Below, piece after piece: positions 2,610-14,046 of a DNA stretch of 14,046 nt (within the stretch, counting starts at the first letter, position 1; each line of letters starts with the position of its first letter). A program made the translations under genes and the position numbers. The notes under the pieces were generated by a model that saw nothing but the letters and a program-made list of their open reading frames with translations, was not told the origin of the DNA and searched no databases. The stretch spans positions 1-14,046 of the forward strand of contig URMT01000039.1 in NCBI GenBank assembly GCA_900549005.1. Reading direction: 5' to 3'. The DNA is from an uncultured Eubacteriales bacterium (GTDB lineage: Bacteria; Bacillota; Clostridia; Christensenellales; Borkfalkiaceae).

Positions 2610-2633
2610 TCTTCTTAATCTTTGAGGAGTAAT

Positions 2634-4283
2634 ATGCAAAAAATCATCAACAGCACCGATTTCCGCAAAATGGTCTCTTCCGGTGCCAGAATGCTTGAAA
2701 TAAACAGGGCCAAGGTAGACGCCCTCAACGTATTCCCCGTACCCGACGGCGATACGGGTACCAATATGTCGCTCACTATGCAGTCGGCGATAACCGAGAT
2801 GAACGCCTGTTCGTCCAACCGCTTCCAGGAGATATGCGACGCCGTTTCAAAGGGCGCTCTCCGCGGCGCGCGCGGCAACTCGGGCGTAATCACCAGCCAG
2901 ATTTTCCGCGGCATCTGCTCGGTAGTGCGCGAGTGCCAGCAGGGCATAGACACAAAGACTTTCGCAAAGGCGATGGAGGCGGGCACAAAGGTCGCTTACA
3001 GCGCCGTTTCAAAGCCCAAAGAGGGCACCATTTTAACGGTCGTAAGGCTGATGAGCGAGGCCGCGCCCAAACTTGCAAGCAAGAATAAAGATTTCGTAGA
3101 CTTCTTCACCGCGCTCATTGCCGTCGGCGACGAAGCTCTCGCCCATACCCCCGAACTTCTTCCCGTGCTCAAAAAGGCGGGCGTCGTAGACAGCGGCGGC
3201 GTGGGGCTTATGACTATAATGCGCGGCTTCCTTGCCGCAGTTTCGGGCGAAGATATCGGCACCGAAGATATCCCCACCGACGCCCAGACGCAGAAAAAAG
3301 AGGCCGAATTCGGCGACAATTCCGATATAATAAACCTCGACCTCGGCGAGATAGAGTTTGCCTACTGCACCGAATATTTCATCATCCACTTGAAGCCGAT
3401 GACCACCCTCGCCGACATAGACAGGCTCAAAGAAAAGCTGATGCAGATAGGCGACAGCGTAATCTGCATAGGCGACCTGGAACTCGTAAAGGTGCACGTG
3501 CACACCAACACGCCAGGCATAGCGCTCTCTTACGCGCTCGAACTCGGCGAGCTCGACAGAATAAAGATAGAAAATATGCTTGAAGAAAACCGCCAGCTCA
3601 AAGCCAAGCTGGAAGCCGAAAAGAAGGAGATGGGTATGCTTGCCATCTGCTCGGGCGAAGGCCTTGCGGAAATCTTCAAAGACCTTATGTGCGACAGGGT
3701 TATAGAGGGCGGCCAGACGATGAACCCCTCCGCGCAGGACATTGCCAGCGCGGTTCAGAAGATAAACGCCTCTACCGTGTTCGTATTCCCCAACAACTCG
3801 AACATAATTCTTGCGGCTGAACAGGCAAAAGACCTTGTAACCAACCGCAACATTCAGGTAATACCCACCAAAAACGTGCCCCAGGGCTTTGCCGCGGCGC
3901 TTGCCTTCAACCCCGAAGCCACCGTTCCCGTCAACAAGACCAATATGACCCACGCGATAGACAACGTGACCTCGGGTCTGGTGACTTACGCCGTGCGCAA
4001 CACCACGATGAACGGCTTCAAGCTCAAAGAGGGCGACATAATCGGCCTCGACAACAAAAAAATTCTTGCCAAGGGCAACGACGTTGACGAAACCACCATA
4101 AAGCTGATAGAGGCTATGAAGACCGACGACCACGAGATGATAACGCTCTACTACGGCGCGGGCGTAAAGGAAGAGGAAGCCGAAGCTCTCGCCGCAAAAG
4201 TGGCCGAGCGCTTCCCCGAATGCGACGTAGATTTCCACTACGGCGGGCAGCCTGTATATTATTATATGGTTTCGATGGAATGA
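2634..4283 (+). CDS. fakA: Fatty acid kinase catalytic subunit FakA (DAK2 / DegV-like, YloV)
   Basis: FakA phosphorylates fatty acids presented by FakB (DegV-type) proteins, feeding exogenous fatty acids into phospholipid synthesis. The product has 549 residues, the usual length. Domains in order: an N-terminal DAK2/DhaL kinase domain (about 1-200) with the nucleotide/metal motif VPDGDTGTNM (Asp38, Asp40) and RGARGNSGVITSQIFRG; a middle domain containing HVHTNTPG, whose His pair is functionally important in characterised FakA; and a C-terminal DegV-like domain ending GGQPVYYYMVSME. I chose ATG 2634, not the TTG at 2622, because the GAGGAG ribosome binding site at 2624-2629 would otherwise be inside the gene. 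It sits in an operon behind the asp23-like gene. No fakB is in the window, so the partner must lie elsewhere. Confidence 0.95.
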   Translation: MQKIINSTDFRKMVSSGARMLEINRAKVDALNVFPVPDGDTGTNMSLTMQSAITEMNACSSNRFQEICDAVSKGALRGARGNSGVITSQIFRGICSVVRECQQGIDTKTFAKAMEAGTKVAYSAVSKPKEGTILTVVRLMSEAAPKLASKNKDFVDFFTALIAVGDEALAHTPELLPVLKKAGVVDSGGVGLMTIMRGFLAAVSGEDIGTEDIPTDAQTQKKEAEFGDNSDIINLDLGEIEFAYCTEYFIIHLKPMTTLADIDRLKEKLMQIGDSVICIGDLELVKVHVHTNTPGIALSYALELGELDRIKIENMLEENRQLKAKLEAEKKEMGMLAICSGEGLAEIFKDLMCDRVIEGGQTMNPSAQDIASAVQKINASTVFVFPNNSNIILAAEQAKDLVTNRNIQVIPTKNVPQGFAAALAFNPEATVPVNKTNMTHAIDNVTSGLVTYAVRNTTMNGFKLKEGDIIGLDNKKILAKGNDVDETTIKLIEAMKTDDHEMITLYYGAGVKEEEAEALAAKVAERFPECDVDFHYGGQPVYYYMVSME

Positions 4284-4286
4284 CCC

Positions 4287-4468
4287 TTCACGAATTTTTC
4301 GTGCGGGCCGCGCACTAAAAATTCCGTGAGTTTGAGGTGCCAGCCCCTCTTGCCCCGATTTTTAGGGGCCCTCGATAATATAATCGGTGCAATTCACCCT
4401 TGGTGAGCCTGCTATCGCGGCAAATGTTGTCGCGCTGGCGCAAGGAAACCTTGCTTGCGCACGTTATT
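4287..4468 (+). repeat. Structured dispersed repeat, copy A
   Basis: This is one of three related copies (A here, B at 7549-7708 inverted, C at 8879-9000). It starts with a long imperfect hairpin (4288-4327, arms containing AATTTTT/AAAAATT around GTGCG/CGCAC), then the core at 4347-4468. In the core CCGATT (4355-4360) pairs with AATCGG (4382-4387); TCACC (4394-4398) pairs with GGTGA (4402-4406); and GCAAGG (4440-4445) pairs with CCTTGC (4449-4454). The same stems exist in the other copies with changed but still complementary bases. It fills the fakA-recG spacer and encodes no protein I can support. No family name is recognised. Confidence 0.78.
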
Positions 4469-4562
4469 TGTTTTGAAAGCTCATTCGCGACTTCCGCCGG
4501 CTTCGCGTCTTGCTCGCATCTGCAAGGGTTATCTGTGCGGAATAAATAATTTGTTTAATTTT

Positions 4563-4586
4563 CGGGGAAAGATTGTTCTTTCCCCG
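4563..4586 (+). promoter_or_regulatory. Hairpin upstream of recG
   Basis: A perfect nine-base stem (4563-4571 with 4578-4586, loop ATTGTT) lies 64 bases before the recG start. It has no following T-run. The 4469-4649 stretch otherwise shows no convincing promoter, so recG may be read through from fakA or from a promoter I cannot recognise. Confidence 0.45.
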
Positions 4587-4649
4587 TTGCCATATACGGG
4601 GCGCATACTACTTTTAAAGGCCGGCGCAGGCCGCAGTGCGGGGCACGGA

Positions 4650-6635
4650 ATGAAACTTACAGAAATAAAATATATTTCCGAAAAACGCGAAAAAGATTTT
4701 GCAAAGCTCGGCGTGCATTCCGCCGAAGAGCTTGTGCGCCTGTACCCGCGCGACTTTCTGGACCTCACGCACGTTTCGCTCATCTCGCAGGCAGAACACA
4801 ACGCGCACGCGCTCATTTCGTGCGAAGTGCTCAATGCCGAATTCAACCGCTTTGCCCGCCGCCCTTACGTAAAGGCGCTCTGCCAGCAGGAGGGCTGCGT
4901 GTTTACGGCAATCTGGTTCAACCAGCCCTATGTATTGCAGAAGTTGAAGCCGGGGCGCTACCTCTTTTACGGCAGGGTGCAGAACCGCTACGGAATGGGC
5001 GCCTCTATGGTCAATCCTTCGTTCGAAAGCGCCGACAACAATAAAAACTTGAAGGGCATAATTCCCGTCTATCCGCTCGCAGGCTCGCTCACGCAAAAGG
5101 TAGTGCGCGACGCCGTGCGCTTCGCGCTCACAAAGGTAGCGCCTTCAACGCTCATTCCCGAACAGCTCCGCAAAAAGTACGCCCTGGTGTCCCTTGCCGA
5201 AAGTTACAGGCGCATACACGCCCCGCAGTCGCAGGAGGACATAAAAAAGGCGTCCGCGCGCATCGCGCTCGAAGAGTACTTTCTTTTAATCTCCGCCTTC
5301 CGCGTAATAAAGGGGTACGGCGCAAAGGTGCGCCTCAACGCTTACTCCGTAACCGAAGCCGAAGTTTCGTCGTTTATGTCGCGCTTTCCGTTCTCGTTCA
5401 CCGCGGGCCAGCTTGCCGCCGTGCGCGAAATTTACGATAACGTCCATTCCCCCTCGCAGATGAACAGGCTTTTGCAGGGCGACGTAGGCAGCGGCAAGAC
5501 GGCCGTGGCCCTCACGGGAATGTATATGGCGGTAAAGTCGGGCTACCAGAGCGCGATGCTCGCCCCCACCGAAGTGCTCGCCCGCCAGAACTTCGCCCTC
5601 ATACAGAAATATTTCCCCGAATATAACTGCGCCATGCTCGTCGGCTCTACGCCCGCGGCAGAAAAGCGCGCCATAAAATCTTCGCTGAAAAAGGGCGAAA
5701 TACAGATAGTCTGCGGCACCCACGCCGTCATTCAGAAGGACGTCGCGTTCAAAAACCTCGCCTTCGTCGTGTGCGACGAACAGCAGCGCTTCGGCGTTGC
5801 GCAAAGGGCCTCGCTCGCCGAAAAGGGCGCGGGCTGCGACGTGCTTATAATGTCGGCAACGCCAATTCCCCGCACGCTCTCGCTGATATTCTACGGCGAT
5901 TTGGATATCACCACCATAAAGGATAAGCCCGCCGCGCGGCAGGAGATAACTACGGCAATCATTCCTCACTCCAAGTATGCCGATATGCTCGGCTACATCG
6001 CCGCACAGGCGCGCGAAGGCAGGCAGTCTTACTTCGTCTGCCCCAAGATAGAGGGGGACGAAGAGGGCACCGTGATGTCCGTCACCGAGCTGTTCGAAGA
6101 GCTGTCGCAGAAGATGCGCGGCGTGCGCCTCGCCCTTTTGCACGGCAAGATGAAGGAGGCGGAAAAGAACGCCGTGATGGCCGACTTCAAGGCGGGCAGG
6201 TACGACTGCCTGGTATCCACCACGGTGATAGAGGTGGGTGTGGACGTGCCCAACGCCACCATAATGGTCATCTACAACGCCGAACGCTTCGGACTTTCGC
6301 AGCTGCATCAGCTCCGCGGCAGGGTGGGACGCGGCTCGCAGAAGAGCTACTGCTTCCTTTTAATGGGCACCGATACGCCGCAGGCGCGCGAGCGGCTTTC
6401 GGTAATAAAGAACAATTCCGACGGCTTCAAGATAGCCGAAGCCGACTTGCAGCTGCGTGGCGGCGGCGACTTTATGGGCACCCGCCAGAGCGGCCGCGTG
6501 CTCACCGAAATAGGCAACGCCGGCAGGGGTCTCGGCGGCGGGGGTCTCCCCGGAAGGGGTCTCGGCGGCGGGCTCGTTGCCGCCGCCGCAGGCGGCCCGG
6601 GCCATCTCCGACGAGGCTTTTTCGGGTGGCTTTGA
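4650..6635 (+). CDS. recG: ATP-dependent DNA helicase RecG (C-terminus frameshifted)
   Basis: RecG remodels stalled replication forks and branched DNA. ATG 4650 is chosen (MKLTEIKYISEKREKDFAKLG) because it fits the family N-terminus; the open frame extends up to 4455, but that extra part translates repeat DNA. Visible parts: wedge/OB domain (about 60-150), Walker A GDVGSGKT at 277-284, motif II DEQQRFGV at 376-383 (the family usually has DEQH), MSATPIPRT from 401, and the motif VI block QLRGRVGRG at 554-562, then GTRQSG at 610-615. After residue about 621 the frame runs into a glycine-rich low-complexity tail and stops at 6635. The expected RecG C-terminus is present in the frame one base over, ending at 6702. 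The helicase core is complete; whether a working protein is made is uncertain. The ribosome binding site is weak. In Bacillus recG lies in the same neighbourhood. Confidence 0.9.
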   Translation: MKLTEIKYISEKREKDFAKLGVHSAEELVRLYPRDFLDLTHVSLISQAEHNAHALISCEVLNAEFNRFARRPYVKALCQQEGCVFTAIWFNQPYVLQKLKPGRYLFYGRVQNRYGMGASMVNPSFESADNNKNLKGIIPVYPLAGSLTQKVVRDAVRFALTKVAPSTLIPEQLRKKYALVSLAESYRRIHAPQSQEDIKKASARIALEEYFLLISAFRVIKGYGAKVRLNAYSVTEAEVSSFMSRFPFSFTAGQLAAVREIYDNVHSPSQMNRLLQGDVGSGKTAVALTGMYMAVKSGYQSAMLAPTEVLARQNFALIQKYFPEYNCAMLVGSTPAAEKRAIKSSLKKGEIQIVCGTHAVIQKDVAFKNLAFVVCDEQQRFGVAQRASLAEKGAGCDVLIMSATPIPRTLSLIFYGDLDITTIKDKPAARQEITTAIIPHSKYADMLGYIAAQAREGRQSYFVCPKIEGDEEGTVMSVTELFEELSQKMRGVRLALLHGKMKEAEKNAVMADFKAGRYDCLVSTTVIEVGVDVPNATIMVIYNAERFGLSQLHQLRGRVGRGSQKSYCFLLMGTDTPQARERLSVIKNNSDGFKIAEADLQLRGGGDFMGTRQSGRVLTEIGNAGRGLGGGGLPGRGLGGGLVAAAAGGPGHLRRGFFGWL

Positions 6636-6702
6636 AATTTCCGCCCTCCGTCGGGCCGCGCTCGAAAAGTATAAGGCGCTCGAAGACGTCGTGCTCAACT
6701 GA
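6514..6702 (+). pseudogene. recG: Displaced C-terminal segment of RecG (+1 frame)
   Basis: In the frame starting at 6514 (one base off the main recG frame) the reading passes through pentapeptide-like repeats (GVSAA, GVSPE, GVSAA) and then gives AISDEAFSGGFEISALRRAA and EKYKALEDVVLN, ending with TGA at 6700-6702. This looks like the genuine C-terminal tail of RecG. The stop codon TAG at 6511 in this frame limits the shift to somewhere between 6514 and about 6600. With the tail joined, the protein would be about 683 residues, close to the Bacillus (682) and E. coli (693) proteins. It could be a true mutation, an assembly or sequencing error in G-rich repeats, or, less likely, programmed frameshifting. 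Confidence 0.85.
6526..6570 (+). repeat. 15-bp tandem repeat inside the 3' end of recG
   Basis: Three units start at 6526, 6541 and 6556, each beginning GGGGTCTC; the first and third are identical (GGGGTCTCGGCGGCG) and the middle one ends CCCGGAA. The unit length is a multiple of three, so the repeat number alone does not change the frame, but the runs of four or five G are likely slippage points. The repeat sits where RecG proteins normally have a short helical linker. Confidence 0.85.
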
Positions 6703-6722
6703 ACCGTATAAAATTAACGTAA

Positions 6723-6768
6723 GGCCGCGCGGCGCAAAGTTTTGTTTGCGCCGCGCGGCCCGCTTTTA
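6723..6768 (+). terminator. Intrinsic terminator after recG
   Basis: A perfect 16-bp G+C-rich stem (6723-6738 with 6745-6760, loop GTTTTG) is followed by CGCTTTTA. It begins 20 bases after the displaced recG stop at 6702, which supports 6702 as the original gene end. The T-run is short, but the stem is very strong. Confidence 0.8.
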
Positions 6769-6850
6769 CTCTATCGCAACAGGCGTTTCTGAAAACCGTT
6801 TGATTGATTCTTTATTGCCATTTCGTCTGGCGCAAACTTGCTCTCGCTCT

Positions 6851-6896
6851 GTCGTTTCGACCGAAACGAACGAAGTGAGTGAAGCGGAGAAATCTC
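6851..6896 (+). repeat. GTC(A/G)TTTCGA...GAGAAATCTC intergenic repeat, copy 1
   Basis: This is a short interspersed unit starting GTCGTTTCGACCGA and ending AGCGGAGAAATCTC. Similar units occur at 7030-7065 (inverted), 9014-9050 and 9066-9093. A diverged piece may also end at about 7001 with GTGGAGAAATCTC. The rest of 6769-7160 shows no credible gene; the open frames there have no family resemblance. Confidence 0.7.
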
Positions 6897-7029
6897 AAAT
6901 TATTTTTCTCAACGTCATTGACGCGATTGCGCTTGACAGCGAACAATCGCTATTCCGTCGCCTACGGCTCCTTACGACCAAGGGCGCAGCCCGCGTGGAG
7001 AAATCTCAAAAAAACGAATCAACGGACAA

Positions 7030-7065
7030 GAGATTTCTCCGTTCGCTCCGCTCAGTCGAAATGAC
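7030..7065 (-). repeat. GTCATTTCGA...GAGAAATCTC intergenic repeat, copy 2 (inverted)
   Basis: On the minus strand this reads GTCATTTCGACTGAGCGGAG followed by a short arm and GGAGAAATCTC. With copy 1 it forms a long inverted pair separated by about 130 bases, so the region 6851-7065 could fold into one large stem. Confidence 0.7.
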
Positions 7066-7166
7066 AATCGGGGGGCGGCAGCCGCTTAGCTTGCGGCTTC
7101 CCGAAAAGGTCTTCCGTAAAGCAGTTTCGCAAATTGACGCACTTTTGCTTTATCATAATAAAGCGG

Positions 7167-7196
7167 TTGACAGGTCGTCCGCCGCCGTGCTATAAT
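7167..7196 (+). promoter_or_regulatory. Strong sigma70-type promoter (upstream of tandem pair)
   Basis: A perfect TTGACA (7167-7172) and a perfect TATAAT (7191-7196) are separated by 18 bases. No gene begins close behind it; transcription would run through the hairpin at 7231-7284 and the second promoter at 7303 before reaching the aldolase gene at 7720. Confidence 0.75.
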
Positions 7197-7230
7197 AAAC
7201 AATAATTTCGCAAAACAATACTTTAATTGT

Positions 7231-7284
7231 GTGCGCCTCGCACTTTATCGCGCGGCCCGCGCGACAATTTCGTGAGGCTCGCAC
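7231..7284 (+). repeat. Partial repeat hairpin between the two promoters
   Basis: GTGCG (7231-7235) pairs with CGCAC (7280-7284), CCTC with GAGG, and TCGCGCG (7248-7254) with CGCGCGA (7258-7264). Its right half (7249-7277) is identical over 29 bases to 7678-7706, the hairpin that contains the aldolase Shine-Dalgarno sequence. It is therefore a duplicated fragment of the copy B repeat end. Confidence 0.75.
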
Positions 7285-7302
7285 CTTATTGCAATAGTGC
7301 GG

Positions 7303-7331
7303 TTGACAACAGTAAGCGCGTATGCTAAACT
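7303..7331 (+). promoter_or_regulatory. Promoter for the aldolase-like gene with a long leader
   Basis: TTGACA (7303-7308) and TAAACT (7326-7331) are separated by 17 bases. Both this and the promoter at 7167 are preceded by GCGG, as if duplicated. The resulting leader of about 380 bases holds hairpins at 7414-7442 (CTGCCG/CGGCAG), 7469-7492 (GCAAACGC/GCGTTTGC), 7510-7531 and the copy B repeat. Confidence 0.65.
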
Positions 7332-7509
7332 GAACTATATTTTATTAAATTCAAAAATAAATTATGTCGCAAGCAAGGGTCTCGGCTGCAATAAGGTAAA
7401 CAACTTGCAGCATCTGCCGTTTCCCTTCGGGAGCCTCGGCAGAGTAGCGCTTTGCTCACGCGGTCAACGCAAACGCTTTCATATGCGTTTGCTCACCTCA
7501 TATCGCCAC

Positions 7510-7531
7510 GCACAACGGGTGTCCGTTGTGC
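7510..7531 (+). repeat. GGGTGTCC-loop hairpin module, copy 1
   Basis: GCACAACGG (7510-7518) pairs perfectly with CCGTTGTGC (7523-7531) around the loop GTGT. It is preceded by GCTCACCTCATAT. The same module (CTCACCTCA, then a stem ending GG, loop GTGT, CC) occurs at 8829-8874 with a different but again perfect stem, so the loop is conserved while the stem bases vary. Confidence 0.75.
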
Positions 7532-7548
7532 TATGAAAGGCTCATTTG

Positions 7549-7708
7549 GCCTTGCGCAGCAGGACACAATTTGTCGCTACTGCGAGCTCACCGGGGTGAA
7601 TTGCCGCGACTATATAAATGTGGGCTGTAAAGGTCGCGGCAAGAGGGGCAGAGCTCCTCAAATCACGGAAATTGTCGCGCGCGGCCCGCGCGACAATTTC
7701 GTGAGGAG
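7549..7708 (-). repeat. Structured dispersed repeat, copy B (inverted)
   Basis: The reverse complement aligns with copy A across both the terminal hairpin and the core. The stems are GTCGCGGC (7633-7640) with GCCGCGAC (7603-7610), TCACC with GGTGA (7588-7592, 7595-7599), and the long terminal hairpin at 7654-7708. Homology ends near 7549, inside the last hairpin of copy A: the GCGCAAGG arm is present and the second arm is missing. Copy B lies directly against the aldolase gene. Confidence 0.78.
7654..7708 (+). promoter_or_regulatory. Long hairpin sequestering the aldolase Shine-Dalgarno
   Basis: CTCCT (7654-7658) pairs with AGGAG (7704-7708), CACG (7664-7667) with CGTG (7700-7703), and 13 further bases (7669-7681) pair perfectly with 7687-7699. 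Only a five-base bulge and one extra G interrupt the helix. AGGAG is the only Shine-Dalgarno sequence for the ATG at 7720, so folding should block ribosome binding. This is predicted from complementarity; no ligand or regulator is known. Confidence 0.7.
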
Positions 7709-7719
7709 ATTAAATATTT

Positions 7720-8691
7720 ATGGAAAACGTAGGAAATCTTCAATCGTTCCGCAAGGGCGTTAAAATACTCGATGCCACCCTCCGCGACGGAGGAATAGTC
7801 AATTCGTTCTACTTTAAAGACGACTTCGTAAAGGCGCTCTATAAGGCCAATATCGCCGCGGGCGTAGACATAATGGAGTTCGGCTATAAGGTGTCGAAAA
7901 AGATGTTCGATACCACGAAGTTCGGCAAGTGGAAGTTCTGCGACGAAAAGGATATCCGCGCCATAGTCGGCGAAAACAAGAGCGATATGCTCATCAGCGT
8001 AATGTCCGACGTGGGCAGGGTCGACCTCAAAGAGGAGGTCATTCCCAAAAAGGAGTCGGTAATCGATATGTACCGCATAGCTACCTACGTGCACCAGATA
8101 CCCTCCGCGATAGAGATGATAGAGTACTGCGCCAAGATGGGTTATAAGACGAGCTGCAACGTGATGGCCATTTCAAAGACTCAGGAGAGCAGCTTAAAGC
8201 AGGCTTTGGAGATAATAGGCCAGTCCCCCGCCGACATAATGGTGATAGTAGATAGCTACGGCGCGCTCTATCCCGAGCAGATTCGCCCCATATGCGATAC
8301 ATATCTGGAAGTAGCCGCAAAATACGGCAAGCAGGTGGGCATACACGCGCACAACAACCAGCAGCTTGCATTCGCCAACACTATCGAAGCGTGCGCCAAG
8401 GGCGTAAACTACCTCGACGGCACTGTGTGCGGAATGGGCCGCGGCGCGGGCAACTGCTTTACCGAAGCCCTTCTCGGTTTTCTCAAAAACCCCAAATATA
8501 AAATGGAGCCCGTCTTGAAGTTCATCCGCGAGTATATGAATCCCCTTTCAAAGGAAGTGAAGTGGGGGTACGACACCGCCTACCTTCTTACGGGAATGTA
8601 CAACGTTCACCCCTACGCCGCCATCGACTTCATCAAGGCGGGGAGGGAGGATTATGAGGAGTTCATTCAGGAAATAATGGGAGTGGACTAA
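7720..8691 (+). CDS. DRE-TIM metallolyase / HMGL-like aldolase (4-hydroxy-2-oxovalerate aldolase-like)
   Basis: This is a 323-residue TIM-barrel enzyme of the DRE-TIM (HMGL-like) superfamily, whose members make or break carbon-carbon bonds next to a carboxylate using a divalent metal. Seen: the signature LDATLRDGG (Asp18, Arg22, Asp23), which resembles the TLRDG of 4-hydroxy-2-oxovalerate aldolases, the metal-ligand motif HAHNN at 209-213, and GMGRGAGN at 238-245, another hallmark of that subgroup. It lacks the LeuA dimer and regulatory domains, so it is not an isopropylmalate synthase. No acetaldehyde dehydrogenase partner or catabolic cluster is nearby, so the substrate is unknown. The start at ATG 7720 is set by AGGAG at 7704-7708, 11 bases upstream. 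It is monocistronic: a long structured leader precedes it, and a strong terminator follows 9 bases after the stop. Confidence 0.88.
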   Translation: MENVGNLQSFRKGVKILDATLRDGGIVNSFYFKDDFVKALYKANIAAGVDIMEFGYKVSKKMFDTTKFGKWKFCDEKDIRAIVGENKSDMLISVMSDVGRVDLKEEVIPKKESVIDMYRIATYVHQIPSAIEMIEYCAKMGYKTSCNVMAISKTQESSLKQALEIIGQSPADIMVIVDSYGALYPEQIRPICDTYLEVAAKYGKQVGIHAHNNQQLAFANTIEACAKGVNYLDGTVCGMGRGAGNCFTEALLGFLKNPKYKMEPVLKFIREYMNPLSKEVKWGYDTAYLLTGMYNVHPYAAIDFIKAGREDYEEFIQEIMGVD

Positions 8692-8700
8692 AAAGTTCAC

Positions 8701-8733
8701 AAAAATGCCGCGCTGGCCGAGCGCGGCATTTTT
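8701..8733 (+). terminator. Intrinsic terminator after the aldolase-like gene
   Basis: A perfect 14-bp stem (8701-8714 with 8720-8733, loop GGCCG) starts with AAAAA and ends with TTTTT, so it can act in both directions. It lies 9 bases after the stop codon. Confidence 0.93.
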
Positions 8734-8758
8734 CGTGAGACGGAGAAACCAAGGTCTC

Positions 8759-8788
8759 GCGCGGCGTGCGGTGTATAAACCGCCGCGC
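8759..8788 (+). other. Inverted repeat of unknown role
   Basis: GCGCGGCG (8759-8766) pairs with CGCCGCGC (8781-8788) around a 14-base loop. It sits between the aldolase terminator and the GGGTGTCC hairpin module. No T-run follows. Confidence 0.45.
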
Positions 8789-8828
8789 TCGGTCACCGTT
8801 CGGACTTTGATTTGCCCTCACTCACCTC

Positions 8829-8874
8829 ACATTGCACAAACAGCGGGTGTCCGCTGTTTGAAGAACTGCAATGT
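8829..8874 (+). repeat. GGGTGTCC-loop hairpin module, copy 2
   Basis: ACATTGCA (8829-8836) pairs with TGCAATGT (8867-8874), and directly inside it CAAACAGCGG (8837-8846) pairs with CCGCTGTTTG (8851-8860) around GTGT. That makes 18 perfect base pairs broken only by a six-base bulge (AAGAAC) on the 3' side. It is preceded by CTCACCTC as in copy 1, and it precedes the core of repeat copy C by only a few bases. Confidence 0.8.
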
Positions 8875-8878
8875 TCGT

Positions 8879-9000
8879 CTCTTCGCGCGACTTTTCAGGG
8901 CCCTCGATTATATAGTCGCGCGAATTCACTTCTGGTGAGCCTGCTGCCGCAGCAAATGTGGTCGCGCTGGCGCAGGGGAACCCTGCTTGCAAACGTTAAT
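8879..9000 (+). repeat. Structured dispersed repeat, copy C
   Basis: The core aligns base for base with copy A (4347-4468) along its whole length. The first stem is CGCGCGACT (8884-8892) with AGTCGCGCG (8914-8922), the second TCAC with GTGA (8926-8929, 8935-8938), and the third GCAGGG (8972-8977) with CCCTGC (8981-8986). Copy A has GCAAGG/CCTTGC at the third, a compensated A-T to G-C change. The terminal hairpin of copies A and B is replaced here by the GGGTGTCC module. No gene lies in 8734-9104. Confidence 0.78.
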
Positions 9001-9013
9001 TATCTAATTAGTT

Positions 9014-9050
9014 GTCATTTCGACCGAGCGTAAGCGAGCGGAGAAATCTC
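9014..9050 (+). repeat. GTCATTTCGA...GAGAAATCTC intergenic repeat, copy 3
   Basis: This starts GTCATTTCGACCGAGCG and ends GCGGAGAAATCTC. It is directly followed by a fourth, shorter unit, and both lie just beyond the 3' end of the minus-strand lipoprotein gene. Confidence 0.75.
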
Positions 9051-9065
9051 AAATTGTTTTTTAAC

Positions 9066-9093
9066 GTCATTTCGAGCGTAGTAGAGAAATCTC
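9066..9093 (+). repeat. GTCATTTCGA...GAGAAATCTC intergenic repeat, copy 4 (short)
   Basis: This starts GTCATTTCGAGCG and ends TAGAGAAATCTC, lacking part of the middle seen in copy 3. It ends 12 bases from the lipoprotein stop codon. On the minus strand AGAGATTTCTCT is a small palindrome that might help end transcription, but no T-run follows. Confidence 0.65.
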
Positions 9094-9104
9094 TTTAAAG
9101 TTGA

Positions 9105-11766: not shown

Positions 11767-13878
11767 ATGGCAAGAGAATACGATTTACTTCACACCCGCA
11801 ATATAGGTATAATGGCGCACATAGACGCAGGCAAGACTACGACTACCGAGCGCATACTGTATTATACGGGCATCAATCATAAAATCGGCGAAACGCACGA
11901 CGGCACCGCTACTATGGACTGGATGGTGCAGGAGCAGGAGCGCGGCATAACCATCACTTCCGCCGCAACCACCTGCCACTGGACGCGCAGCGGCAAGACC
12001 AAGGCTGACGAATGCCGTATCAACATCATAGACACCCCGGGCCACGTTGACTTCACCGTAGAAGTTGAGCGTTCGCTCCGCGTTCTCGACGGCGCCATCG
12101 CAACTTTCTGCGCAAAGGGCGGCGTTGAGCCCCAGTCTGAAACGGTATGGCGCCAGGCAGATAAATACAAGGTGCCCCGCATTGCCTACGTAAATAAAAT
12201 GGACATCAACGGCGCAAACTTCGAGCGCGCCGTAAGAATGATGAGGGAGAGGCTCTCTGCCAACCCCGTTCCCATCGAGCTTCCCATCGGTAAGGAAGCT
12301 ACCTTCCGCGGAATAGTCGACCTCATCGAAATGAATGCCGAAATTTACGATTCCGACGACGGCAAACAGTACCACAAAGACGAAATTCCCGCAGATATGC
12401 AGGCTGAGGCGGAAGAGCTTCATATGAAAGTTATGGAAGCCGCTGCCGAGGGCGACGACGAGCTTATGGAGAAGTTCCTCGAAACTATGGAACTCACCCC
12501 CGACGAAATAAGAAAGGGTCTTCGCAAAGCTACCATCGATATGAAGTGCACCCCCGTGCTCTGCGGTTCTTCCTATAAGAACAAGGGCGTTCAGATGCTT
12601 CTCGACGCCGTTATCGACTTCCTTCCTTCCCCCGTGGACGTTGACCACGTAAAGGGTATCAACCCCAAGACGGGCGAAGAGGAAGAGCGCAGGACGGCCG
12701 ACGACGAACCTTTCTCGGGCCTCGCATTCAAGATTGCAACCGACCCCTTCGTGGGCAGGCTTGCATATTTCAGAGCATATTCGGGCGTGTTGGAGTCCGG
12801 TTCCTACGTATATAACTCTACCAAGGGTAAGAGGGAGCGCGTAGGCCGTCTCGTTCAGATGCACGCAAACAACCGTACAGAAATTCCCCGCGTTTACTCG
12901 GGCGATATCTGCGCGATAGTCGGCCTCAAAGACACCACTACGGGCGACACGCTCTGCGACGAAGCTCATCCCATCGTTCTCGAACAGATGACCTTCTCCG
13001 ACCCCGTTATCCAGCTCTCCATCGAGCCAAAGACCAAGGCCGGCCAGGAAAAGATGACGATGGCGCTCATAAAGCTCGCCGAAGAGGACCCCACTTTCAA
13101 GACCTATACCGACCAGGAGACCGGTCAGACGATAATCGCAGGTATGGGCGAACTCCACCTCGACATCATTGTAGACAGGCTTCTGCGCGAATTCAAGGTA
13201 GAGGCAAACGTGGGCGCTCCCCAGGTTGCCTACCGCGAAACCTTCAAGCAGGCGGTTGACGCCGAAGGCCTTTACAAGAGGCAGTCCGGTGGTAAAGGCC
13301 AGTACGGTCACTGCAAAATCCACCTCATTCCCGGCGAGCCCGGTTCGGGCTACGTGTTCGAAGACCTCACCGTCGGCGGCTCTATTCCCAAGGAATATAT
13401 CCCCGCAATCGACAAGGGTATTCAGGGCGCGGCCAAGAACGGCTTCCTTGCAGGGTACGAAGTGGTTGACTTCAAAGTACAGGTTTACGACGGAAGCTAC
13501 CACGAGGTAGACTCCTCCGAAATGGCGTTCCAGATTGCCGGCTCTATGGCGTTCAAGAACGGTATGGAAAAGGCAAAGGCAGTTCTGCTCGAACCCATAA
13601 TGAAGGTTGAGGTTATCACCCCCGACGACTATTTCGGCGATATAATGGGCAACGTAACCTCCCGCCGCGGCACGATAGTATCTACCGACGACCGTGCAGG
13701 CGCAAAGGTTGTAGACGCAGAAGTTCCCCTTTCCGAAATGTTCGGCTATGCAACCGACCTTCGTTCGCGCACCCAGGGCCGCGGCCAGTTCACTATGCAG
13801 TTTGACCATTATGCCGAAGTGCCCAAGTCTGTTGCCGAAAAGGTAATCGGCGAAAGGGCGAAGCAGCACAAGGCGTAA
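11767..13878 (+). CDS. fusA: Elongation factor G
   Basis: EF-G is the GTPase that drives translocation of tRNA and mRNA on the ribosome and helps recycling. The product has 703 residues, normal for the housekeeping type. Seen: P-loop AHIDAGKT at 17-24, the switch I region [20 protein letters not shown] from residue 89, NKMD at 143-146, then domains II to V, with [20 protein letters not shown] marking the start of domain IV and [20 protein letters not shown] near the C-terminus. The ribosome binding site GGGAG lies 7 bases before the ATG. It is the third gene of the str operon; tuf would be expected next but the contig ends. The last 20 codons and the stop are duplicated 167 bases downstream. 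Confidence 0.98.
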
Positions 13879-13879
13879 G
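13818..13879 (+). repeat. 62-bp direct repeat, first copy (3' end of fusA)
   Basis: This segment covers the last codons and stop of fusA and is identical to 13985-14046. The repeat period is 167 bases. Confidence 0.95.
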
Positions 13880-13984: not shown

Positions 13985-14046
13985 AGTGCCCAAGTCTGTT
14001 GCCGAAAAGGTAATCGGCGAAAGGGCGAAGCAGCACAAGGCGTAAG
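13985..14046 (+). repeat. 62-bp direct repeat, second copy (truncated by the window end)
   Basis: This is an exact duplicate of 13818-13879, beginning in the middle of a fusA codon context and with no start codon of its own. It reaches the last base of the window, so the real repeat may be longer. It may be a real tandem duplication or an assembly loop at a contig end. Confidence 0.95.

Follow-up and report, generated by a model that had tools for sequence, protein, structure and literature searches.

Three copies of a structured repeat surround the recG gene and an aldolase gene on the contig URMT01000039.1 (assembly GCA_900549005.1), and since changes in their stems are compensated on the opposite arm, the locus raises the question whether this fold is kept as RNA or as DNA. 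The whole stretch analysed comprises 14,046 nt and is called the window in the following; all coordinates refer to it. A preliminary description of the window had offered both a non-coding RNA family and a hairpin-based mobile element as explanations. The repeat is probably a mobile piece of DNA, non-autonomous and built on hairpins, that belongs to one Clostridia clade, i.e., Candidatus Coproplasma and its relatives, and not a non-coding RNA family.

The repeat and the pairing of its stems

The repeat is about 177 nt long and folds into six hairpins, P1 to P6; with its A/T-rich tail it reaches about 195 nt. P1 is a hairpin of 18 bp whose foot reads TTCAC/GTGA and in which one C close to the 3' foot stays unpaired, the loop of P3 (about 23 nt) retains GCCC-like and TATATA parts, P4 (TTCAC..GGTGAG) is almost invariant, and P6 is built of an outer and an inner stem, behind which the tail follows. 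Unpaired stretches are kept in the P3 loop and between P5 and P6. The bulged C of P1 was retained in 75 of the 78 full copies with a recognised P1. By profile, the element ends with GYTCAC at the 5' side and with TTATTTATTTTARAA at the 3' side, and the end profiles of the copies reveal neither terminal inverted repeats (TIRs) nor a sequence motif ahead of the 5' end beyond the element foot itself.

A contig scan with a core pattern of 21 specified bases resulted in 45 loci, whose record titles name Clostridia or Candidatus Coproplasma metagenome-assembled genomes (MAGs); all genomes studied are MAGs and hence incomplete. From the 51 match places in these loci and the window, 19 matches, all from other genomes and none from the window, were used to build the covariance model R1; copies that carried inserts, differed in the length of the P2 loop or ended unusually were left out. 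The structure written from these 19 copies comprises 54 pairs, and RNAalifold yields a nearly identical fold of 53 pairs on their alignment. R1 run over 1.5 Mb of the relatives' sequence gave 132 matches, the best 100 of which were taken for the position work.

In the 19 copies standard pairs occupy 96.1% of the pair cells, compared with 78.6% after shuffling and 34.7-46.2% with the partners slid by 1-3 columns. Changes on both sides are found in 35 of the 54 pairs, and the covariation score of 0.485 (shuffled: 0.162) was reached by 0 of 500 shuffles. The covariation of the repeat is thus strong. Strong covariation is usually read as a mark of functional RNA, and selection on an RNA strand should tolerate G-U pairs far more than A-C pairs. 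In the 100 best copies the substitutions are mostly from one Watson-Crick pair to another: the 5296 pair cells, counted in an alignment fitted to the R1 structure, contain 4980 Watson-Crick, 80 G-U, 84 A-C and 152 other combinations. The copies behind stop codons, which are in sense to the preceding gene (n = 55), hold 39 G-U and 37 A-C pairs and those before start codons 20 and 31, respectively (p 0.21). The 491 pairs of 23 distinct tRNAs from the same loci include 32 G-U and 0 A-C (Fisher p 1.5e-9 compared with the copies at gene edges), in a control that is small and in which ARAGORN, as it expects stem pairs, may understate A-C.

G-U is as rare as A-C in the repeat, and therefore its pairing is kept in a strand-symmetrical manner, i.e., as folded DNA or by templated palindrome repair. 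The conserved bulge of P1 counts against repair alone. On present evidence the repeat is not an RNA family, and this part of the preliminary description was not supported, as G-U is no commoner than A-C, unlike in the tRNAs. The equal rarity of G-U and A-C offers a simple test that can split DNA-level from RNA-level pairing in "structured RNAs" found by covariation.

All three copies of the window are matched by R1: copy A at 4286-4462 on the + strand (165.1 bits, E 4e-47), copy B at 7529-7706 on the - strand (147.8 bits) and copy C at 8839-8994 on the + strand (114.8 bits), with a separated 5' part at 8695-8821 on the + strand (47.3 bits). The three structured copies with paired changes that had been described are real, as a model from 19 outside copies finds each of them. 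The shared core is present, and the copies are longer than had been described, running from 4286 to 4478, from 7350 to 7706 and from 8695 to 9011. The stem first described in the core corresponds to P3 and was said to be perfectly paired in all copies, which applies to B and C, whereas A has one mismatch over the full 10-bp stem (by eye). The compensated last stem was recovered as P6 and the TCACC/GGTGA stem as the near-invariant P4. The features are as follows.

4286..4478, + strand: copy A, uninterrupted, from the R1 match and located hairpins; starts 2 nt past the stop of a FakA-like gene (2622-4283)
4287..4329, + strand: A, P1 hairpin with the bulged C near the 3' foot
4334..4349, + strand: A, P2 hairpin
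4352..4390, + strand: A, P3 stem with long loop (GGCCCTCGATAATATA)
4393..4407, + strand: A, P4 hairpin (TTCACC..GGTGAG)
4408..4420, + strand: A, P5 hairpin
4429..4462, + strand: A, P6, outer and inner stem (GCGC..GCAAGG AAA CCTTGC..GCGC)
4463..4478, + strand: A, A/T-rich 3' tail
7249..7277, + strand: 29 nt that duplicate the P1 end of B (7678-7706) exactly
7350..7706, - strand: copy B, complete, interrupted; its P1 end abuts the Shine-Dalgarno-like GAGGAG of the aldolase gene (7720-8691)
7663..7705, - strand: B, P1 hairpin
7643..7659, - strand: B, P2 hairpin (by eye)
7601..7642, - strand: B, P3
7587..7600, - strand: B, P4
7574..7586, - strand: B, P5
7550..7565, - strand: B, 5' half of P6
7379..7549, - strand: B, 171-nt insert in the P6 loop, which can itself form hairpins
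7350..7378, - strand: B, 3' half of P6 and A/T-rich tail
8695..9011, + strand: copy C, complete, interrupted; starts 3 nt past the aldolase stop codon
8696..8738, + strand: C, P1 hairpin, identical to the same-site copy of genome G002 (locus L115)
8754..8877, + strand: C, insert of about 124 nt in the P2 loop; at the same site G002 is without and G004 with an insert
8882..8924, + strand: C, P3
8925..8939, + strand: C, P4
8940..8953, + strand: C, P5
8961..8994, + strand: C, P6
8995..9011, + strand: C, A/T-rich tail

Interruptions like those of B and C are found in other copies as well. In the 132 aligned copies, inserts of at least 20 nt are located in the loops of P1 (2), P2 (3), P3 (5), P4 (12), P5 (3) and P6 (1), with a model that prefers loop placement, and P6-interrupted copies were seen by eye, e.g., in L011, L017, L042 and L043. 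Ahead of the aldolase gene, two promoter-like sites at 7167-7196 (12/12 matches) and 7303-7331 (10/12) enclose the duplicated P1 piece and are followed by copy B. P1 was also considered as a plain terminator and rejected: the three P1 hairpins of the window are not among the terminator-like sites, where a stem limit may hide them, and in some P1 copies, e.g., in A, a T-run precedes the A-run.

Orientation towards gene edges

The location of the copies follows the borders of genes. Placement relative to stop and start codons kept 96 of the 100 best matches. Of these, 55 follow a stop codon read in the same direction, 52 of them at a distance of 1-10 nt; 26 precede a start codon on the opposite strand, and 15 lie elsewhere. 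The copies before starts mostly leave a purine-rich, Shine-Dalgarno-like stretch free (by eye). It is the P1 end that faces the gene: with a simple gene prediction, 57 of 66 copies have this end no more than 25 nt away from a predicted gene, compared with 7 of 66 for the tail end, and random placement in the same spacers results in 11.9 of 66, with a maximum of 20 in 2000 runs. The predicted-gene test kept 66 of the 100 best matches, and 34 were dropped due to contig ends or a predicted open reading frame (ORF) overlapping the element. Close elements mostly turn their P1 ends outward. Seven neighbour pairs are less than 400 nt apart, six tail to tail and one in tandem, and an eighth pair, 627 nt apart, is arranged tail to tail with a gene between. 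Solo P1 hairpins obey this placement to some extent: 41 of them, which include other palindromes and full elements seen from the opposite strand, were found at 2-8 nt past a stop (9), before a start (9) and elsewhere (23), with other palindromes among the last group. With a strict match list, 26 of 110 directed comparisons showed an element at the same edge in the other species; five of the comparisons, those of L071_6444, match element sequence and not the gene, and site 3 of G004, described below, was scored as empty though an element split by an insert is present.

In an alternative reading, an RNA fold at the end or in the leader of an mRNA is selected, acting as a stabiliser, as a ribosome-stalling hairpin or as a processed small RNA. 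The narrow spacing behind stop codons, the edges occupied in more than one species and the conserved unpaired stretches described above speak for such an element, and orientation changes over time could hide part of its signal. Moreover, repetitive extragenic palindromic sequences (REPs) of E. coli cause ribosome stalling when located no more than 15 nt from a stop codon (PMC12306157). Nevertheless, selection at the RNA level is unlikely, because G-U equals A-C even in the 55 sense copies, at variance with the tRNAs, and because 26 of the 81 gene-edge copies are antisense, at gene starts.

Less probable still is that the palindromes are maintained by mutation, i.e., that template switching during replication keeps the arms complementary without any function and that recombination spreads the sequence. 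Repair of this kind accounts for the Watson-Crick arms, for G-U being as rare as A-C and for P1 arms that differ widely at the same site. However, it should erase the P1 bulge, which is kept almost throughout, it sits poorly with the near-invariant P4 and with the TATATA and GCCC-like parts retained in the P3 loop, and it leaves both spread and position unexplained.

Occurrence and spread among related genomes

All 12 genomes behind the pattern loci, which belong to uncultured gut bacteria, Candidatus Coproplasma and relatives, carry the repeat with 12-88 matches each, i.e., at least 61, 67, 48, 78, 60, 22, 60, 13, 88, 55, 12 and 24 with up to 150 candidates scored per genome; G003, G004, G005 and G009 have at least 48, 78, 60 and 88 (the highest number) matches, respectively. 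In a genus draw 37 of 40 genomes were positive with 1-68 matches each, and 7 of the 40 were already known carriers. At least 33 of 121 genomes were positive in a family draw and at least one of 299 in a phylum draw, the latter being the centre genome itself. Up to 68 candidates per genome were scored for the genus, 22 for the family and 9 for the phylum, with stricter filters for family and phylum, so that these counts are lower bounds. In a separate draw the aldolase gene had a DNA-level match in 21 of 61 genomes, which shows how broad the genus is. Several genomes contain 60-88 matches in less than 2 Mb, and the element therefore shapes their spacers.

That no named family could be assigned to the repeat still holds. 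Rfam 15 gave no match at the gathering threshold anywhere in the window, and between 4240 and 9100 the sole weak match was ncS54 with 17 bits (gathering score 43, E 3.1). Two exact core patterns had no match in viral contigs, and blastn with the core of copy A had none in phage and plasmid records. A literature search, judged by titles, openings of abstracts and selected passages, found no description of the repeat.

Dispersed copies, near-identical copies at different loci and presence or absence at the same junction support the hairpin-based mobile element of the preliminary description. For 46 of the 88 best copies, the set used for the likeness test, the nearest neighbour is in the same genome (expected: 19.7; maximum in 1000 shuffles: 37). 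Five copy pairs, all in G009 and at different loci, are 96-99% identical; their 5' flanks are unrelated, the likeness starts at the P1 foot and the tails differ. The gene order around the window is retained in G002 and G005. At site 1, behind the FakA-like gene, the element is present in the window and G004 and is missing in G002 and G005; G005 has an inverted copy ahead of recG. At site 2, ahead of the aldolase gene, the full element is found in the window only, with none in G002, G004 and G005, and G005 shows a solo P1 hairpin. At site 3, behind the aldolase gene, it is present in the window, G002, G004 and G009 and missing in G005 and G176; G145 has no element in place and an R1 copy about 210 nt further on, and in G134 there is none within the 41 nt seen before the contig end. 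In G009, two facing elements fill 712 nt between flanks whose aligned blocks are separated by 71-305 nt in the 13 other genomes read. In two of 11 same-site element pairs common descent is clear, with 94 and 97% identity. In a search for a close empty site, the best relatives were 88% identical over one flank, and the spacers are too diverged for a base-by-base alignment. In G004 (L074:12567-13879) the aldolase gene and the element are inverted relative to their neighbours, which places an inversion end in or beside element sequence.

Several observations weigh against a mobile DNA repeat. The likeness of copies inside one genome stems largely from G009 (0.715 within and 0.662 to others), and G002 shows none (0.671, 0.671). 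The near-identical copies of G009 often share, in part, another repeat of the CCTCCCC kind behind the tail, so that the copied unit may be longer, and gene conversion between resident copies would equally yield near-identical copies. The remaining nine of the 11 same-site pairs are no more alike than random pairs, which leaves their exact descent unclear, and no insertion between strains was caught, the comparisons being those of species with flanks about 70-90% identical. Target duplication is absent, with a mean shared flank word of 2.49 nt compared with 2.70 nt after shuffling (84 copies), and without TIRs and target duplication strict transposition is not shown. A replication-strand bias was not significant (p 0.10) in a crude test using the sign of the GC skew over whole stretches. 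Furthermore, the pair counts come from a structure-fitted alignment and the tRNA control is small. Finally, no mobilising enzyme was found among those looked for, i.e., Y1 transposase, reverse transcriptase and IS110. The evidence does not fully tell insertion apart from replacement by gene conversion or from long divergence under constraint.

Regarding the enzymes, Y1 transposase matches occur in four of the 12 genomes and in none of G003, G004, G005 and G009. No R1 match lies in eight Y1 loci of 2-3.4 kb each, and the flanks of six of them are unlike the element by eye. Y1 transposase was rejected as partner, as its genes look like IS200 copies (by eye) and its loci are without an R1 match. 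The reverse transcriptase domain RVT_1 was matched in G003, G007, G142, G143 and G153 (five of 12 genomes, in a search set that differs partly from that used for Y1) and not in G001, G002, G004, G005, G009, G010 and G139, and the IS110 DEDD transposase was found in 0 of 12 genomes searched; both were dismissed as mobiliser, as their presence does not track the element. Judged by eye only, the ORFs listed between neighbouring elements resemble ordinary cellular genes. MAGs are incomplete, but one gene would hardly be lost by chance from every one of them.

Hairpins with a conserved bulge are reminiscent of REP and IS608 ends. The repeat might accordingly be a relic or satellite of a known class, i.e., of IS200/IS605 or of REP-associated tyrosine transposases (RAYTs), of a group II intron, a retron, a diversity-generating retroelement or of IS110 with its bridge RNA. 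The Y1 and reverse transcriptase genes that some of the carriers encode would fit to this. It is nevertheless very improbable, considering the eight Y1 loci without a copy, the high-copy genomes without Y1, the lack of RVT_1 in six genomes (G001, G002, G004, G005, G009 and G010) and the lack of IS110 in all 12. Chance GC-rich palindromes or an assembly artefact, to which contigs from MAGs might give rise, are a practically negligible explanation in view of the E value of copy A, obtained with a model built without it, and of the 37 positive genomes in the genus draw.

Known repeats and a possible mechanism

The mobile DNA repeat that is preferred here can be compared with known structured repeats. 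The BOX elements of Streptococcus pneumoniae are modular, structured intergenic repeats with exchangeable parts; compared by description only, they differ in host and anatomy. REPs are high-copy intergenic palindromes in alternating orientation (PMC2817692), which measure 20-40 bp and mostly carry a GTAG or CGTC tag (PMC3733652), and E. coli REPs at 15 nt or less from a stop were counted as 446/4,072 in one study and as 260/496 in an earlier one (PMC12306157). The present repeat resembles REPs and REPINs in its high copy number, its intergenic palindromes of alternating orientation and its location, in part, close behind stops, but it is about 195 nt long with six hairpins and has the foot TTCAC/GTGA and no GTAG/CGTC tag. 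In contrast to REPs and REPINs with a RAYT, there is no Y1 match in eight of the 12 genomes including G009, where absence from a MAG is uncertain, and in contrast to IS200/IS605, the element ends were not found with Y1 genes (8 loci).

The bcr1-bcr3 repeats of the Bacillus cereus group are structured and intergenic, have about 147-167 bp and tens of copies, show traits of mobile elements and are termed MITE-like, after miniature inverted-repeat transposable elements (MITEs); 84/165 and 62/155 of the copies lie inside transcripts (PMC3446304, PMC2267715). Compared by description, they are similar in their Firmicutes host, their many structured intergenic copies and their presence or absence between relatives. 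The present repeat differs in having no TIR, no target duplication and its P1 end at gene edges. MITEs are non-autonomous, have 70-300 bp with TIRs of 15-30 bp and often lie beside coding sequences (PMC3733652). MITEs such as ERIC, RUP and NEMIS share with the repeat that they are non-autonomous and beside coding sequences, while MITEs of the DDE type differ from it, which is without TIRs and target duplication (84 copies). The repeat is best regarded as a lineage-specific, high-copy and modular array of hairpins that spread as DNA, a variant within the bcr1/REP kind of structured intergenic repeats whose polarity towards gene edges is unusual.

As to the mechanism, the hairpins would act as folded DNA, either single-stranded or as a cruciform, recognised by an enzyme in trans, and P1 with its bulged C would be the likely docking hairpin. 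Other hairpin repeats may insert into the loops and behind the tail, while the P1 end at the gene side stays. An inserted hairpin next to a coding region may, like REPs, act on the mRNA as well; such an effect is apparently not the reason why the stems stay paired. Going further, we tentatively consider it possible that the repeat represents a new class of hairpin DNA, in which P1 docks at the edge of functional DNA (a stop codon, a ribosome-binding region or perhaps a promoter border), the mobiliser is none of Y1, reverse transcriptase and IS110, all six stems are kept as folded DNA and other hairpin repeats use the loops as landing sites. How such repeats spread is a question raised directly by the gene-edge polarity and by high-copy genomes in which the usual mobilising enzymes are missing.

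Some further observations concern the surroundings of the repeat. A shorter relative of about 110 nt consists of a P1-type and a P6-like hairpin only (CTTAACGGCGAAAGTAAATTCCGCCTTG) and is found at L101:13927, L113:2216, L065:1389 and L074:11595. Tandem copies with a spacing of about 190 nt occur at L030:117-679 (three in a row), L006:6656-6997 and L071:6444-6812. Repeats of the form GTCATTTCGACC...GGAGAAATCTC are located at 6830-7060 and 9017-9095 of the window and also behind element tails in other genomes. The end of recG (6512-6700) is GC-rich with a 15-nt periodicity, where G002 and G005 have about 85 nt of other sequence, and the reading frame behind this stretch differs from that of the relatives. 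The last 62 bases of the window (13985-14046) are an exact repeat of the fusA end (13818-13879), 167 bases earlier, possibly as an assembly effect at the contig end. A second dispersed repeat (about GCAATACTxTGTCGC...TCATTTAC...GTAAACTCCTTCGC..CTTCCGC) occupies element-free junctions, namely behind the FakA-like gene in L112 and L115 and behind the aldolase gene in L112 and L138, where the element is absent.

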